From Paludibaculum fermentans (GTDB lineage Bacteria; Acidobacteriota; Terriglobia; Bryobacterales; Bryobacteraceae), in contig NZ_CP063849.1 in assembly GCF_015277775.1 (NCBI RefSeq), positions 2,480,001-2,544,000 of the forward strand: a DNA stretch of 64,000 nt, written 5' to 3'. Position numbers and translations under genes: made by a program. Shown one piece after another: positions 11,498-18,015 of the stretch. Numbering within the stretch: position 1 is the stretch's first letter; each line of letters starts with the position of its first letter. Under the pieces are notes generated by a model that worked only from the letters and a program-made list of their open reading frames with translations, did not search any database and was not told the origin of the DNA.

Positions 11498-14400
11498 ATG
11501 AGAATGAGAACCATACCTGTACAGATGTTCAACGTGGCGCTGACGCTGTGCGCCGCGTTGACGATGGCCACGGCGGCCGGCGCAGCACCGCCGCGTCCGC
11601 AAGGCCCGTGCGACGTCTACGCCGCCGCGGGCGCCCCCTGCGTGGCCGCCCACAGCAGTACGCGCGCGCTGTATGCCGCCTACAATGGACCGCTCTACCA
11701 GGTCCTGCGCCAGTCCGATGGCAAGACGTTGGACATCGGCGTGGTCCAACCCAGTGCGCTGCCGGTCACGGACGCGGGCGGCTATGCCAATGCGGCCGCG
11801 CAGGACGCCTTCTGCGCGAACACGCACTGCTGGGTCAGCATCCTCTATGACCAGTCGCCCAAGGGAAACCACCTGATCCAGGCGCCGCGCGGCGGCTTCA
11901 GCGGTCCGGCCATGGGCGGCTTCAACAACCTCCCGGTGGCGGATATGGCGCCGGTCACTCTGATGGGCCACAAGGTCTACGGCATCTTCATCGCGCCGGG
12001 CATGGGCATCCGTCTGAACGATGCGAAGGGCACTGCCGTGGACGACCAGGCGGAGGGACAGTACTGGGTGATCAACGGCCACCACTACAACTCCGGGTGC
12101 TGCTTTGATTACGGCAATGCCGAGACGGACAGCCGTGACGACGGCAACGGCACCATGGAGACCACCTACTACGGCAACGCCACGCCCTGGTACCGGGGCA
12201 CCGGCAACGGCCCCTGGATCATGACCGACCAGGAGAACAACCTGGTGGGCTGCGTGAATCCGGATGAATCCAAGCTCTGTACGAACCTGCCGAGCATCAC
12301 GTGGCGGTTTGTCACCGCGATCGCCAAAGGGGAGCCGCACCATTGGACGTCCATGGGCGGCGACGCGCAGCGGGGTCCGTTGTCAGTCATGTTCGACGGA
12401 CCGCGCATTGACGTCACTTACGACCCGATGCGCAAGCAGGGCGCCATCCTGCTGGGCAATGGCGGCGACAACAGCGTTGGCTCGCAGGGCACCTTCTACG
12501 AAGGCGCGATGACGGCCGCGGGCACATTCCCTTCAGACGCCACTGACCAATTGGTGCAGGCCAACGTAGTGGCCGCGAAATACGATGTGCAGCGGCTGAG
12601 CCTGGCGCCGGCGGCCGCCACAGCTACACCGCCCGGAGTTCAGACCTTCGCCCCGCGATCCTCACAGGACACCACCCTGACATTCACAAACACGACAGGA
12701 GCGCCGGCGACGGGCGTGAAGCTGAGTATCTCCGTGCCCAAACAGTGGACCGCCATGGCAGTTGGCTCCAAGACTGCGTCGGTGACGATTCCTGAGACAG
12801 TGGCCCCCGGCGCGAGCGTGAATGCGACCTTCAAGGTCACCTCAGGACCAGCGGCCCTCAACGGCGACCTGGTAGGCAATGCGTCCTGGACAGCCCCGGG
12901 CGGCACGAGGCATTCGGAGACAACGGTGGAGAAGGTGCGGAACGTCAATCCCGTCAAGATCAATGAGTTCCGCGTCAGTGCAGGCAATCCTTCCAATTCA
13001 ACGAACTCGTTTATCGAGCTTTACAATGCCGGGGCCAGCGCGGTGGACCTCTCCAACTGGAGCCTGACCCAGCACCAGACCCAGCAGGCGATCTTCTCAT
13101 CGGTGAAGATCCCCGCCGGGACAAAGCTCGCTCCGGGCGGCTTCTATCTGCTGGGACTCGCGAATTCGGGACTGGCGGTGCCCGCGCGCACCGGTGACAG
13201 CACCCTGTATGTCAGGAGCACAACCGGCATGTCGGCCGGCGGCACGATCGAGATCGACACGGGCTCCAAGCTGGAGACGCGCAAGATTGCGAGCGTGGGG
13301 ACGGCGGCGGGCAACAGCACAACATTGTGGCAGCCATTGCCCGACGGGATGGTAATCACGATCCCTGCCGGATCGACCAACGTACCCGTCACCAGCGTGT
13401 CGGGGTTCGAGGTCGGCCAGAAGATCGCTATCGGCTACGGCGCCACCTATCCCACCGTCGCAAGGGGCGTGGAGAAGTATGAAGTGGCCACCGTCACCGC
13501 CGTGGGCAAGCCGGGCACGCAGGCCTTCCTGGGCGTGGACGCGCCCGCCGGCGCGACCAACATCAAGGTGACCTCGGTTGCCAACATCTCGGCTGGAGAC
13601 AAGATCCGGCTCGACATCGACAGCGTAGGCCATGGAATCGAGACAGTTACAGTAACTCGTGTTGGCACCCAGGCCAGCCGTAGTGCGCTGACGGCGAATG
13701 TGGGCACTGGCGCGACCAACATCAAGGTCCGCAGCGTAAACGGCTTCACGGTGGGCGACAAGTTGACCGTCGGTACGCCCGCGAACCAGGAGACAGTGAC
13801 GATCAGCGCGATCGGCGCCAACGTCTACTTCACTCCCGCCCTCACCAGGCCGCACCTCAACCACGAGGAGGCGATCGCCCAGGGCACGGGCCTGGATCTA
13901 TCCGCTCCACTGCGCTTCCCCCATGCGGGTAACATGCCCTTCAGCGTCCGGGGCACGGGTATCACCTTCCAGCCTGCAACCGTCTTTGCGCACTCCAGCA
14001 ACGAACCGGTCCAGCCATTGGGCACGGGCATCACGCTCGACAAGCCTCTGGCCAAAGAGCACGATATCAACGCGCCCGTGCGGGACGCCGCGGTCACCAC
14101 TGCGGGGTATCAGGACACACCGGCCCCCAATCAATGGTTCGGCGGGCCGGCCCTCTCCCCCAGCGCCGGCAACATGGTGCTGCGCGATGCCGCCGGCCTG
14201 GTCGTCGACAGCCTCAACTACGGCCTGCCGGTCGATCCGTGGGCCTCTGAGGGCTATCATGGCATCTCTGGCTCAGGACAGGGCGGCTGCCTGGTGCCGG
14301 CACCTGGCTTTGCGCGCGGCGTCGGCCCGGCCGCGGCGGCGTCGGGGGCGACGAACCGGAGCGCGGGCCGCTTCCCGGACGGCGCCGATACCGACAGCAA

Positions 14401-14899
14401 CTGCACCGATTTCCTGCTGCAGCCAGCCACCACCCTGTCGGCCGCGTCGGCCGCCGGCTCAAACAACATCAAAGTGGCCAGCGTGGCAGACTTCAAAGCC
14501 GGCCAGACGGTTCTGATCGACGCCGGTGGCGAACTTGAGAATGCGGTGATCGAAACGGTCGGTACAGCCGGGGCAACAACAGCGGGGACGGCCACCAACC
14601 CGGGCGCAACCGTGATCCCGGTGAATGGCGTGATGGGCTTCACAGCCGGACAGACTATCCTGATCGACGACGGAGCAAACCGCGAAACGGCCGTCGTCGC
14701 GTCCGTCACATTCGGGTTCAGGAACTCCTCCATCACCGTGGCGGCGCCGCTGAAGTCCGCGCACGCCGCCGGGTCACCCGTCACCGGCACCGGCATCACG
14801 CTGGCCGCCCCGTTGACCAAAGCGCATTCCGGCGGGACCCAGGTGGCCAGAAGCCTGCCCACTCCAGGCGCGCCCAACCAATACGTCCGGTCGAAGTAG
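11498..14899 (+). CDS. GH54 alpha-L-arabinofuranosidase with interrupted lamin-tail domain
   Basis: This 1133-residue exported enzyme has a signal peptide (~1-29) and a GH54 catalytic domain (~35-370) starting GPCDVYAAAGAPCVAAHS. The nucleophile is Glu221 in GTMETTYYG, and the acid/base is Asp324 in GNGGDNSVGSQGTFYEG. Adjacent Cys201-Cys202 in SGCCFDYG match the vicinal disulfide known in the fungal enzyme. Then come a NEW3-like beta-sandwich (~375-480) and a lamin-tail domain beginning VKINEFRVSAG. Four copies of an ATNIKVxSVxGFxxGD repeat interrupt the lamin tail, which resumes at NQWFGGPALSPSAG. It is interrupted again by two more copies before the end PTPGAPNQY. GH54 hydrolyses terminal arabinose from arabinan and arabinoxylan. 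No CBM42 is present. ATG 11498 has AGGA upstream. Confidence 0.85.
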   Translation: MRMRTIPVQMFNVALTLCAALTMATAAGAAPPRPQGPCDVYAAAGAPCVAAHSSTRALYAAYNGPLYQVLRQSDGKTLDIGVVQPSALPVTDAGGYANAAAQDAFCANTHCWVSILYDQSPKGNHLIQAPRGGFSGPAMGGFNNLPVADMAPVTLMGHKVYGIFIAPGMGIRLNDAKGTAVDDQAEGQYWVINGHHYNSGCCFDYGNAETDSRDDGNGTMETTYYGNATPWYRGTGNGPWIMTDQENNLVGCVNPDESKLCTNLPSITWRFVTAIAKGEPHHWTSMGGDAQRGPLSVMFDGPRIDVTYDPMRKQGAILLGNGGDNSVGSQGTFYEGAMTAAGTFPSDATDQLVQANVVAAKYDVQRLSLAPAAATATPPGVQTFAPRSSQDTTLTFTNTTGAPATGVKLSISVPKQWTAMAVGSKTASVTIPETVAPGASVNATFKVTSGPAALNGDLVGNASWTAPGGTRHSETTVEKVRNVNPVKINEFRVSAGNPSNSTNSFIELYNAGASAVDLSNWSLTQHQTQQAIFSSVKIPAGTKLAPGGFYLLGLANSGLAVPARTGDSTLYVRSTTGMSAGGTIEIDTGSKLETRKIASVGTAAGNSTTLWQPLPDGMVITIPAGSTNVPVTSVSGFEVGQKIAIGYGATYPTVARGVEKYEVATVTAVGKPGTQAFLGVDAPAGATNIKVTSVANISAGDKIRLDIDSVGHGIETVTVTRVGTQASRSALTANVGTGATNIKVRSVNGFTVGDKLTVGTPANQETVTISAIGANVYFTPALTRPHLNHEEAIAQGTGLDLSAPLRFPHAGNMPFSVRGTGITFQPATVFAHSSNEPVQPLGTGITLDKPLAKEHDINAPVRDAAVTTAGYQDTPAPNQWFGGPALSPSAGNMVLRDAAGLVVDSLNYGLPVDPWASEGYHGISGSGQGGCLVPAPGFARGVGPAAAASGATNRSAGRFPDGADTDSNCTDFLLQPATTLSAASAAGSNNIKVASVADFKAGQTVLIDAGGELENAVIETVGTAGATTAGTATNPGATVIPVNGVMGFTAGQTILIDDGANRETAVVASVTFGFRNSSITVAAPLKSAHAAGSPVTGTGITLAAPLTKAHSGGTQVARSLPTPGAPNQYVRSK

Positions 14900-14946
14900 C
14901 GGGTGACAAAGAATGCATGAGAAGTCGATCGAGAGTTGAAACCGGT

Positions 14947-17900
14947 ATGAAGATCAGAATCCTCGCTGTGCTTTTACCTGCGCTGGCCCTGACGCTGGCA
15001 GGGGCCACTCCTCCGCGCCAAAAGGGCCCGTGTGACATCTATGGCGCGGCGGGCACTCCCTGCGTGGCCGCCCACAGCACCACGCGCGCGCTGTACGGCG
15101 CCTACAAAGGCCCGCTTTACCAGGTGAAACGCGCATCTGACGGCAAGACGCTGGACATTGGAGTTGTCCCTCCCACCGCATCGCCGGTACCGGACGCCGG
15201 TGGGGTCGCTGACGCAGCCGCGCAGGACGCGTTCTGCGCCAATACGCTTTGCGTCATCAACCGGATCTACGACCAGTCCGGCAAAGGCAACCACCTGCTG
15301 CAGTCGCCTCCGGGGCCTTTGTTTCCAGGCCCGGCGAAAGGTGGCTTCGATACTCAGCCGGTCGCGGACATGGCGCCCATCACCATCGGCGGCCATAAGG
15401 CCTACGGCGTCTACATCATGCCGGGCATGGGGTTCCGCAACAACGATGCCAGGGACCTTGCCATCAACGACGAGCCGGAGGGTATCTACTACGTCATCGA
15501 CGGCACGCATTACGACAGCGGCTGCTGCTTCGATTACGGCAACTCCTCCACAAACGGCCGCGCCGTGGGCACCGGCACCATGGAGACCACCTACTTCGGC
15601 ACCGCCACGGCCTGGGGCAGCGGCGCCGGTCCCGGCCCCTGGATCATGGCCGACCTGGAGGCCGGCCTCTTCTCCGGCTATAACGCGAAACAAAACTCAG
15701 GCGATCCGACCATCGATTCATGGCGGTTCGTGACAGCCGTCGTCGACGGCGGCGGCGGCAACCGGTGGGATCTTCGCGGAGGCAACGCACAGAAGGGTGG
15801 GTTGACGACCTTCTACAGCGGGATCCGCCCCGGTTCGCGAACCAACAATAGTTATTACCCGATGCACAAGCAGGGCGCCATCCTCCTGGGCGTTGGCGGA
15901 GACAACGGCAACGGCTCGGCCGGCACCTTCTACGAAGGAGTGATGACTACCGGCTATCCAACAGAAGCCACCACGGATGCTGTGCAGGCCAACATCGTGG
16001 CTGCGCGGTATGGCGTTCAACGTGTGAGGCTGTCGCGCGTCACGACATTTACTCCGGGATCGACGCAGAATGTCACCGCGACGTTCACGAATGTCTCCGA
16101 GGTGCCCGTGACGGGCGTCAAGCTAAGCCTCTCGGTCCCGGCAGGGTGGACCGCCCGTGTCTCCGGCAGCGTTTCGAAAACATTCGACGCGCCGGTGGCG
16201 CCGGGCGCCAGTGTGAGCGCGGCGTTCCAAGTCACCTCGCCGTCGAAGACCGGCGCCGGCTTCCTCACCGGCAAGGCTGAGTGGTCGATTCCAACGGCCG
16301 GCCGGAAGCAGTTCGACACGATCCCCACGAGAGTGCGGAATGTTCTGCCGGTAAAGATCAACGAGGTCCGCCTGGGTACCACCACCAACCCGACCGACCA
16401 GTTCATCGAGCTATACAACGCCGGCTCCAGTGCCGCCGACCTTTCGAACTGGACCCTGGTGAACACGCAGAGCCAGTGGGCGCCAGTCAGGCTGGCAACA
16501 ATCCCAGCAGGCACGAATCTCGCGAGCGGAGCCTACTATCTCCTGGGTCTCTCCGGTTCCGGACTGGCCGCGCCCGCCGCCCCGGGCGCGACGGCCGTTC
16601 ACGTGAGGAGCATCACCGGCCTGGCGCCAGGAGATAAGGTCGGCATCGACGGCGAAACGCGCACCGTCGCCAGTATTGGAACTGCCGCGGCGGCGTTGAC
16701 CACAGTGTTCGAGCCTGTGTCCACCGGCCCTTGGCTCACGATACCGGCCGGATCCACAAACCTGCCCGTAACGAACGCGGCCGGCTTCGCCGTGGGCGAA
16801 AAGCTCGGCATCGACATCGGCGGCAACTACGAACTGGCGACGGTCACAGCCGTTGGCAAGGCGGCCACGCAAACAACACTGGCAGCCGCCTCGGCGGCAG
16901 GCGCCACCAACATCAAAGTAGCCGCCAGCGAGAACATGACGCCCGGTGACACCTTGACGATCGGCACCGGAGTTCGCAAGGAGACGGCCACCGTGCAGAG
17001 CGCCGGAGCCAGCGGAGCCAGCGAGAAAGGCATCGACCTGGCCGCCCCGCTCAAGTTCGACCACATGTCCGGCGTTGACGTCTCGGACGTGGGGACAGGC
17101 ATCAGTTTCACCCCGGCCACCAGATTGCCGCACCTCAGCGGCGACGCAGTCCAGGCGCTGGGCAGCGGCCTGACGCTCGACCGCCCGCTCACCAGGAGCC
17201 ACGAATACGGCGCGGCCGTGGTGAATGCCCAGGCCGCGACGGCGGGCTACCAGGGTCCACCGGCGCCCAATCAATGGTTCGGGGGCACCCTCTCGGCCAA
17301 GGCCGGTTCCATCGCCCTCCTGGATGCTGCAGGCTCAGTGGTCGACGCAATGGTATACGGATCCCAGCAAAGCAGTTCCAGTGGCAATGGGACCATCACC
17401 AGCCCGGAACTGGCCACGATCGAGGGCGATCAGGGCAAGGGCGGCTGCATCGTGGTGGTGCCGGCCCCAGCCGGCGGAGCGGGTCGCAGCAGGGGCCGGT
17501 TCCCGAATGGCGCCGACGCCGATAGCAACTGCACCGATTTCCAGACCCAGGCCGCCGCTTTCCTGCCGCTAGGCGCGTCCGCAGGCGCGACCAACATCAA
17601 AACCGGCAACGTAACCGGCTTTGCCCCGGGCCAGAAGATCCTGATTGATACCGGGGCAAACCTCGAAACCGCGGTCATCGCGACCGTGGGCACGGCGGGG
17701 GCCTCCACCGTGCGAACCGACACCAGTGCGGGCGCTACCGTGCTTCCCGTAGCTGGCGGGATGGGTTTCAGCGCCGGACAAGCCATTACCATCGATAGCG
17801 GCGCAAAACAGGAGACGGCGGTGATCGTCTCCACCACTTTCGGGAGAGGGGGCGGCGCCATCACCGTCAGCGTGCCGCTCACGTTGGCGCACACTGCCGG

Positions 17901-18015
17901 AGCACAGGTTTCCGGCACCGGCATCAGCTTGACCGCTCCCTTGACCATGACGCATGCCGGCGGTACGCAGATCGTCAGCGGTGTGCCCACGCCGGGCGCG
18001 CCGAATCAGTTCTAG
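14947..18015 (+). CDS. GH54 alpha-L-arabinofuranosidase, tandem paralogue
   Basis: This 1022-residue paralogue of the preceding gene begins 47 bases after it. It has a signal peptide (MKIRILAVLLPALALTLAGA) and a GH54 domain from GPCDIYGAAGTPCVAAHS. The nucleophile Glu is in GTMETTYFG, the acid/base Asp is in GVGGDNGNGSAGTFYEG, and the vicinal Cys pair is in SGCCFDYG. It has the same NEW3-like domain and lamin-tail domain (VKINEVRLGTT ... FIELYNAG). The lamin tail is interrupted first by three and then by two repeats of the ATNIK type, one repeat fewer than its neighbour. It ends PTPGAPNQF. An upstream in-frame ATG at 14917 is possible; 14947 gives the cleaner signal peptide. The two probably act together on arabinan side chains. 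Confidence 0.85.
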   Translation: MKIRILAVLLPALALTLAGATPPRQKGPCDIYGAAGTPCVAAHSTTRALYGAYKGPLYQVKRASDGKTLDIGVVPPTASPVPDAGGVADAAAQDAFCANTLCVINRIYDQSGKGNHLLQSPPGPLFPGPAKGGFDTQPVADMAPITIGGHKAYGVYIMPGMGFRNNDARDLAINDEPEGIYYVIDGTHYDSGCCFDYGNSSTNGRAVGTGTMETTYFGTATAWGSGAGPGPWIMADLEAGLFSGYNAKQNSGDPTIDSWRFVTAVVDGGGGNRWDLRGGNAQKGGLTTFYSGIRPGSRTNNSYYPMHKQGAILLGVGGDNGNGSAGTFYEGVMTTGYPTEATTDAVQANIVAARYGVQRVRLSRVTTFTPGSTQNVTATFTNVSEVPVTGVKLSLSVPAGWTARVSGSVSKTFDAPVAPGASVSAAFQVTSPSKTGAGFLTGKAEWSIPTAGRKQFDTIPTRVRNVLPVKINEVRLGTTTNPTDQFIELYNAGSSAADLSNWTLVNTQSQWAPVRLATIPAGTNLASGAYYLLGLSGSGLAAPAAPGATAVHVRSITGLAPGDKVGIDGETRTVASIGTAAAALTTVFEPVSTGPWLTIPAGSTNLPVTNAAGFAVGEKLGIDIGGNYELATVTAVGKAATQTTLAAASAAGATNIKVAASENMTPGDTLTIGTGVRKETATVQSAGASGASEKGIDLAAPLKFDHMSGVDVSDVGTGISFTPATRLPHLSGDAVQALGSGLTLDRPLTRSHEYGAAVVNAQAATAGYQGPPAPNQWFGGTLSAKAGSIALLDAAGSVVDAMVYGSQQSSSSGNGTITSPELATIEGDQGKGGCIVVVPAPAGGAGRSRGRFPNGADADSNCTDFQTQAAAFLPLGASAGATNIKTGNVTGFAPGQKILIDTGANLETAVIATVGTAGASTVRTDTSAGATVLPVAGGMGFSAGQAITIDSGAKQETAVIVSTTFGRGGGAITVSVPLTLAHTAGAQVSGTGISLTAPLTMTHAGGTQIVSGVPTPGAPNQF

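Follow-up and report, generated by a model that had tools for sequence, protein, structure and literature searches.

Putatively nested small beta-barrels in the lamin-tail domains of two adjacent GH54 proteins

Two adjacent GH54 genes and their lamin-tail domains

The window, i.e., the whole 64,000-nucleotide stretch of Paludibaculum fermentans DNA analysed here, belongs to a genome of 9.53 Mb and carries two GH54 open reading frames side by side on the plus strand (Table 1). Their products, P0001 and P0002, are 49% identical over 1117 aligned columns, and Pfam assigns a GH54, a NEW3 (NPCBM_assoc) and a lamin-tail domain (LTD) to each. The GH54 profile PF09206 matched P0001 at 418.2 bits and P0002 at 460.2 bits, covering profile positions 1-314 of 315, and the solved Aspergillus-type AbfB structure 6sxt matched P0002 at 3.9e-117. 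By the match of their catalytic domains, both proteins are putative secreted arabinofuranosidases of family GH54. Further upstream, two putative esterases, a GH43 protein and a malectin-domain protein are encoded on the minus strand; together with the GH54 pair, these neighbours make the locus look hemicellulolytic. The combination of GH54, LTD, NPCBM_assoc and internal repeats (RPT1) has already been published (PMC8155123), where a RICIN domain is also listed; in the accessible part of that paper a split LTD, a barrel fold and nesting are not described.

Table 1. Features of the two GH54 genes, in positions of the window
Feature	Position	Strand	Remarks
P0001 (P1-type)	11501..14896	+	GH54 + NEW3 + split LTD; insertions hold 4 and 2 putative barrels
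P0001 LTD segment 1 (VKINEF ... LLGLANSG)	12953..13171	+	Pfam LTD profile 5-74 in the intact protein
P0001 insertion 1	13166..14110	+	NNNNCCCC, four N followed by four C parts; putative nesting a[b[c[d d']c']b']a'
P0001 innermost barrel d d' (N + C contiguous)	13688..13855	+	absent from L009-L012
P0001 LTD segment 2 (NQWFGG ... LNYG)	14129..14224	+	insertion 1 excised: joined with segment 1, LTD match 5-108/109
P0001 LTD tail DTDSNCTDF	14387..14413	+	
P0001 insertion 2	14414..14857	+	NNCC, read as e[f f']e'
P0001 LTD tail end PTPGAPNQ	14858..14881	+	cf. SPTPGLAN ending the uninterrupted LTD L001 of the same genome
P0002 (P2-type)	14947..18012	+	GH54 + NEW3 + split LTD; insertions hold 3 and 2 putative barrels
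P0002 LTD segment 1 (VKINEV ... LLGLSGSG)	16351..16563	+	Pfam match
P0002 insertion 1	16558..17250	+	NNNCCC; putative nesting a[b[c c']b']a'
P0002 LTD segment 2 (NQWFGG ... MVYG)	17269..17361	+	insertion 1 excised: LTD match 7-108/109
P0002 LTD tail DADSNCTDF	17515..17541	+	
P0002 insertion 2	17542..17985	+	NNCC, read as e[f f']e'; modelled alone, pLDDT 93.0
P0002 LTD tail end PTPGAPNQ	17986..18009	+	

A preliminary description of this DNA held that one LTD is broken twice, at the same two places in both paralogues, by arrays of short repeats in 4+2 and 3+2 copies. The coordinates of both insertions confirm the shared places, and the copy numbers agree with our counts of N-type parts (see below). 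When insertion 1 was excised, the LTD match of P0001 reached almost the whole of the profile at 54.4 bits, and that of P0002 reached 56.4 bits (PF00932; cut-off 34.3 bits). For P0002 the gain is one of coverage, since the intact segment already attains 54.9 bits by running into the insert, and hence the score gain alone says little for this protein. The near equality of the intact and excised P0002 scores would also suit an LTD that simply stops at FYLLGL, the later LTD-like pieces being unrelated to it and nothing being interrupted. Such a reading is hardly credible in view of the extended coverage of both excised forms, and of three further observations: control excisions moved by 40 residues lowered the score by more than 20 bits (to 28.5 bits for P0001 and 32.8 bits for P0002); the natural homologues L055 and L042, excised in the same manner, also extended (48.5 and 54.3 bits, to profile positions 103 and 108); and L001, an uninterrupted LTD of the same genome, passes through both sites with an identical order of pieces. 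A motif search over nine loci matched L001/L005 alone, which are one protein. These results support the interruption of a single LTD by insertion 1, as judged from the sequences. Because L001 runs through both sites to SPTPGLAN, insertion 2 is placed in the LTD tail (PTPGxxN), between DxDSNCTDF and PTPGAPN and just past the Pfam LTD model. The claim of a doubly broken domain thus stands for insertion 1, but insertion 2 lies outside the LTD core.

Order of half-domains in the insertions

The arrays consist of genuine protein repeats, but the repeat counted originally is the first part of a domain. The complete unit appears to be a barrel of ∼70 residues, in which strands 1-4 make up the N part, marked by GFxxGDxIxI, and strands 5-6 the C part (GTGITLxxPLxxAHxxGxxV). 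Where unrelated proteins carry a single barrel, the two parts are contiguous and span 68-80 residues (boundaries set by hand). N and C profiles built from eight such single barrels revealed N..N followed by C..C in the GH54 insertions, and matched every GH54 homologue among those listed. The profiles were later retrained on 43 homologues of the GH54 family itself (L033 and L041 left out). Of 74 stretches extracted, 73 had N matches, and the remaining one (L038_i2) came from a gene without insertion 2. The N..N C..C order was broken in 0/73 insertions, and N and C counts were equal in 62/73. The 11 unequal cases were NNNCC in insertion 1 of L042, L043, L045, L046, L052, L056 and L130 and in insertion 2 of L010 (one N at 5 bits), NNC in insertion 2 of L037 and L130, and NNNNNCCCC in insertion 1 of L128.

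Since the trailing C parts follow the N parts in mostly equal number, the arrays look nested rather than tandem. We propose that each array would be a stack of small beta-barrels, one inserted in another, with every inner barrel held in the loop that links strands 4 and 5 of its outer neighbour. The stack would have three or four levels in insertion 1 and two in insertion 2; the LTD would be interrupted by the outermost barrel of the former, and the outermost barrel of the latter would sit in the LTD tail. A nested stack is the probable explanation of the GH54-LTD arrays, as indicated by the order and counts of the parts, the restoration of the LTD, the pattern of gain and loss, and the predicted fold. 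It is likely that the N and C parts are paired in the nested order in three dimensions.

The pattern of loss was examined in the 43 homologues. In L048 the first N and the last C are both gone, and insertion 1 measures 188 residues, whereas its length is 225-329 residues in the 42 other rows. The first N scored 0-16 bits, and the last C was undetected, in L042, L043, L045, L046, L047, L052 and L056; apart from these and L048, the first N scored 28-61 bits. In L051 and L053 both are weak but kept. L130 departs from this pattern, with a good first N (39.9 bits) yet an undetected last C. The first-N and last-C scores were correlated (Spearman 0.66, n = 43; a last-C score of 0 was entered for L128 and L132, which lack the marker motif, although the profile detected a C part). 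Since the ten Bacteroidales P2 rows form one clade, the joint loss represents a single event or a few, so that the correlation makes the rows look more independent than they are. As for gain, the fourth barrel of P0001, L013, L014, L015, L018 and L019 is a contiguous N+C piece within the innermost loop, at the point where L009-L012 have a short loop. L128 and L132 have four C parts and a weak fourth N. Covariation between parts was analysed by MI-APC over the 43 rows. The nested partner ranked highest for all five N parts, with small margins (7.7 vs 7.6 for b, and 29.2 vs 28.2 for e). It was not the best partner for a and b without the ten Bacteroidales, for c and e in the P1 rows alone, or for a, b and e in the P2 rows without the Bacteroidales clade. 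As a proof of pairing, MI-APC was set aside: its outcome is suggestive and unstable across subsets.

P0002 residues 358-1022 were modelled with AlphaFold2 at a pLDDT of 83.3 and a pTM of 0.70 (25 sequences), with strands predicted on either side of insertion 1, and insertion 2 of P0002 alone at a pLDDT of 93.0 and a pTM of 0.81 (14 sequences); in the latter model the N and C parts form strands. The best PDB match of the longer model was a phage JBD30 baseplate chain (9.3e-7), which is no global fit, as the TM-scores were 0.12 and 0.13. With insertion 2, Foldseek returned the phage depolymerase 7vul_B as the sole PDB match below 0.001 (E 9.3e-4), followed by other tailspike and tail proteins, including tail-tube and distal tail proteins (E 0.005-0.3), and by F/V-ATPase barrels (E 0.2-0.4). 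K1 lyase structures were among the matches, and nine viral models were found at E <0.001. In its predicted fold the repeat thus resembles the RIFT barrel, the small six-stranded domain known from phage tail proteins, tailspikes and ATPases.

At the sequence level, the phage tail assembly family PHROG 1082 matched 9/14 insertion-2 sequences (best 6.2e-7), the P0002 copy not being among them. Pfam scans of the insertion sequences gave no model at its shown cut-off: against insertion 1 of P0002, the K1-lyase Rider domain PF24149 scored 13.9 bits (E 0.071; cut-off 27) and the SPP1 Dit C-terminal domain PF22768 scored 14 bits (E 0.059; cut-off 25). NCBIfam gave no match. Among solved structures no convincing sequence relative of the insertions was found, the best being an ankyrin chimera (E 0.25) and SPP1 Dit (0.54). 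A direct phage source of insertion 2 was considered and rejected; the P0002 copy had no match in 50,697 phage records, and the 7 pattern matches seen in viral contigs all failed confirmation.

Distribution and history of the two insertions

Homologues were found in 11/61 genomes of the relatives set, the own genome counted. A scan of named genomes yielded 36 loci, 8 of which (L057-L064) are partial or other LTD proteins. The records behind the full-length homologues are labelled Acidobacteriota, Bacteroidota, Alphaproteobacteria, Micromonospora and Verrucomicrobiales, mostly metagenome-assembled genomes (MAGs) with labels as given. Left out of the counts were L057-L064, L033 (on the contig of L007), and the cut or broken L041, L044, L049, L050 and L054. 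L050, on a Bacteroidales MAG contig, has fragments resembling P1 and P2 scattered across a number of shorter frames, as could arise from sequencing errors or decay.

A tree of the 43 rows was built from GH54, NEW3 and the first LTD part, with the insertions excluded and no outgroup. The 18 P1-type rows form one clade (100/100). A search of other genomes for LTDs with both insertions, proposed in the preliminary description, found insertion 1 in 43/43 homologues, but insertion 2 was absent in 12/43; the two insertions therefore differ in history. Insertion 2 is present in 18/18 P1 rows and absent from 12/25 P2 rows, namely L055, L038 and ten gut Bacteroidales; the P0002 orthologue L008 was scored as carrying it, though the gene ends inside it. 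On the tree, its presence and absence require a minimum of 3 changes. P1 and P2 genes lie side by side, as in the window, in G061, G062 and G069, and in G068 and G069 the P1 gene has insertion 2 and the P2 gene lacks it. Because both insertions occur in both paralogue clades, the simplest reading of the unrooted tree is that they arose before P1 and P2 diverged, with three losses of insertion 2 in P2; gains would be a possible alternative. The earlier proposal that the insertions predate the duplication is upheld on this reading, and copy number does still change, as it differs among homologues.

Several individual loci deserve a note. The P0002 orthologue L008 (G006, minus strand) is a 929-residue frame that ends inside insertion 2, and the remainder of the insertion was not found when the three frames of the downstream stretch were inspected by eye. 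At L125, L126 and L129, P1 and P2 are adjacent in MAGs with other labels, which fits both transfer of the pair and mis-binning. L038, the Micromonospora homologue without insertion 2, has a C-terminal region with two similar short repeats beyond the LTD tail.

The barrel in other proteins and readings of the arrays

Matches to an alignment of the barrel (A6) were detected in 30/347 genomes of the phylum of the window, and in 23/346, 6/299, 10/240 and 7/296 genomes of the G065, G066, G071 and G061 phyla, respectively; these sets are drawn samples, each centred on a known GH54 carrier. The N6/C6 profiles were built on 7/11 A6 rows, and loci L202-L255 were judged by match lists, with four examined further. 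Among the frames checked for N/C order, stacks were seen in L144-L147 and L178/L196. L144, L145 and L178/L196 are GH54 genes, the L147 stack lies at the contig position of a Terriglobus homologue, and L146 is a 190-residue fragment. Among the genomes with multiple matches found later, a GH54 motif is present in G1159; for G786 the stretch examined shows the LTD motif alone.

In 20 barrel proteins analysed with Pfam, the barrel or stack lies within or interrupts one domain in 7, lies between domains in 4, and was unplaced in 9. The seven domains concerned are Peptidase_S8 (L143), Bac_rhamnosid_N (L179), Molybdopterin (L176 and L187), Molydop_binding (L175), Phage_tube_2 (L183) and LTD (L145); where the second stretch lies in L179 and L175 was deduced from the count of two. 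The proteins with a barrel between domains are L174, L142, L185 and L186. In L143, residues 562-630 form a single barrel in the subtilase domain, just ahead of the GTSSATP motif. L174-L176 and L187, from the G065 phylum, are molybdopterin-oxidoreductase-like and carry one or two barrels at differing places. L142, L185 and L186 are CEMIP-like (G8 plus CEMIP beta-helix), and a barrel-like stretch separates the two domains.

The arrays could also be ordinary tandem repeats, i.e., a row of four-stranded N units with a separate array of C hairpins or a domain-swapped sheet. Strands 1-2 and 5-6 are alike in sequence (TLAA..AGA..V and ITLxxPLxxAHxxGAxV), so that hairpins could swap partners, and swapped secondary structure is reported for some of the HABAS domains that are inserted recursively in RNA polymerase (PMC11515920, accessible part). 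Against an un-nested row stand the contiguous N+C units of single barrels in other proteins, the equal counts in most insertions, the joint decay of the first N and last C, and the gain of a barrel as one N+C piece in the innermost loop, and we regard it as rather improbable. Mobile DNA offers a different origin of the copies. Palindromic elements insert in frame in Rickettsia genes, and an element of this kind would account for the same barrel inside unrelated proteins and for an insertion 2 that is present in some homologues and absent in others. However, the four insertions share no near-identical DNA: a single weak pair of 35 nt at 74% identity was found (minimum length 24), and the repeat copies are therefore old. 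Furthermore, the strong matches in the 61 related genomes lie in GH54 genes, other frames giving three weak matches, the insertions are common to several phyla, and the searches made detected no recent near-identical copies with flanking duplications at several loci of one genome. Placement by a mobile element is thus very improbable, and the nested stack remains our preferred reading.

The pilus adhesin RrgA is a precedent for a nested stalk. In the literature searched, the relevant precedent for nested or recursive domain insertion is the self-insertion of HABAS domains in the RNA polymerase beta' subunit (Si3; PMC11515920). The proposed likeness is one of architecture: in the part of that paper available, HABAS is a four-stranded open sheet, domain-swapped in places, whereas the GH54 insertions have a predicted closed barrel in a secreted glycosidase and a regular N..N C..C order. 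Six-stranded barrel insertion domains occur in the tailspike beta-helices of LKA1gp49 (PMC5701251) and RcGTA TspA (PMC13420450), and the former is reported to resemble the insertion domain of the P22 coat and the N-terminal domain of the V-ATPase (PMC5701251). As far as the available parts of these papers go, those barrels, like the GH54 ones, are small and interrupt another domain; they are single and sit in a beta-helix, whereas the GH54 barrels are read as nested, and the sequence likeness is weak. LKA1gp49 (4ru4) is one of the structures that Foldseek matched to insertion 2 (E 0.093). The literature searched, with subscription journals largely outside it and papers in part accessible, held no description of nested barrels in these GH54 enzymes.

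If nested, the stack would act as a stiff arm whose length is set by copy number, stiffer than a tandem string because two passes of the chain join each level to the next. This arm would keep the enzyme close to the cell surface or to insoluble hemicellulose, or would bind polysaccharide; such a role is conceivable, and we put it forward tentatively. The chances are about even for a broader proposal, in which a self-inserting barrel of phage-tail type readily enters loops of unrelated enzymes and has inserted into itself in GH54-LTD proteins of several phyla to up to four levels, giving a two-chain arm. On this proposal the arm would grow when a barrel is added in the innermost loop, and would shrink when the outermost barrel or all of insertion 2 is lost. 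A barrel that enters first an LTD and later itself, to a depth of up to four levels, would be an unusual mode of protein growth and would add a regular case to the HABAS precedent. Ordinary repeat counting would misread these proteins, the order of half-domains would record the order of insertion, and the growth and loss of a multi-level architecture could be read from sequence. The finding also draws attention to a small insertable barrel that is carried by enzymes of several families. In L148, L151 and L152, which carry a type IV pilin N-terminal methylation motif, the barrel profile matches the globular part.
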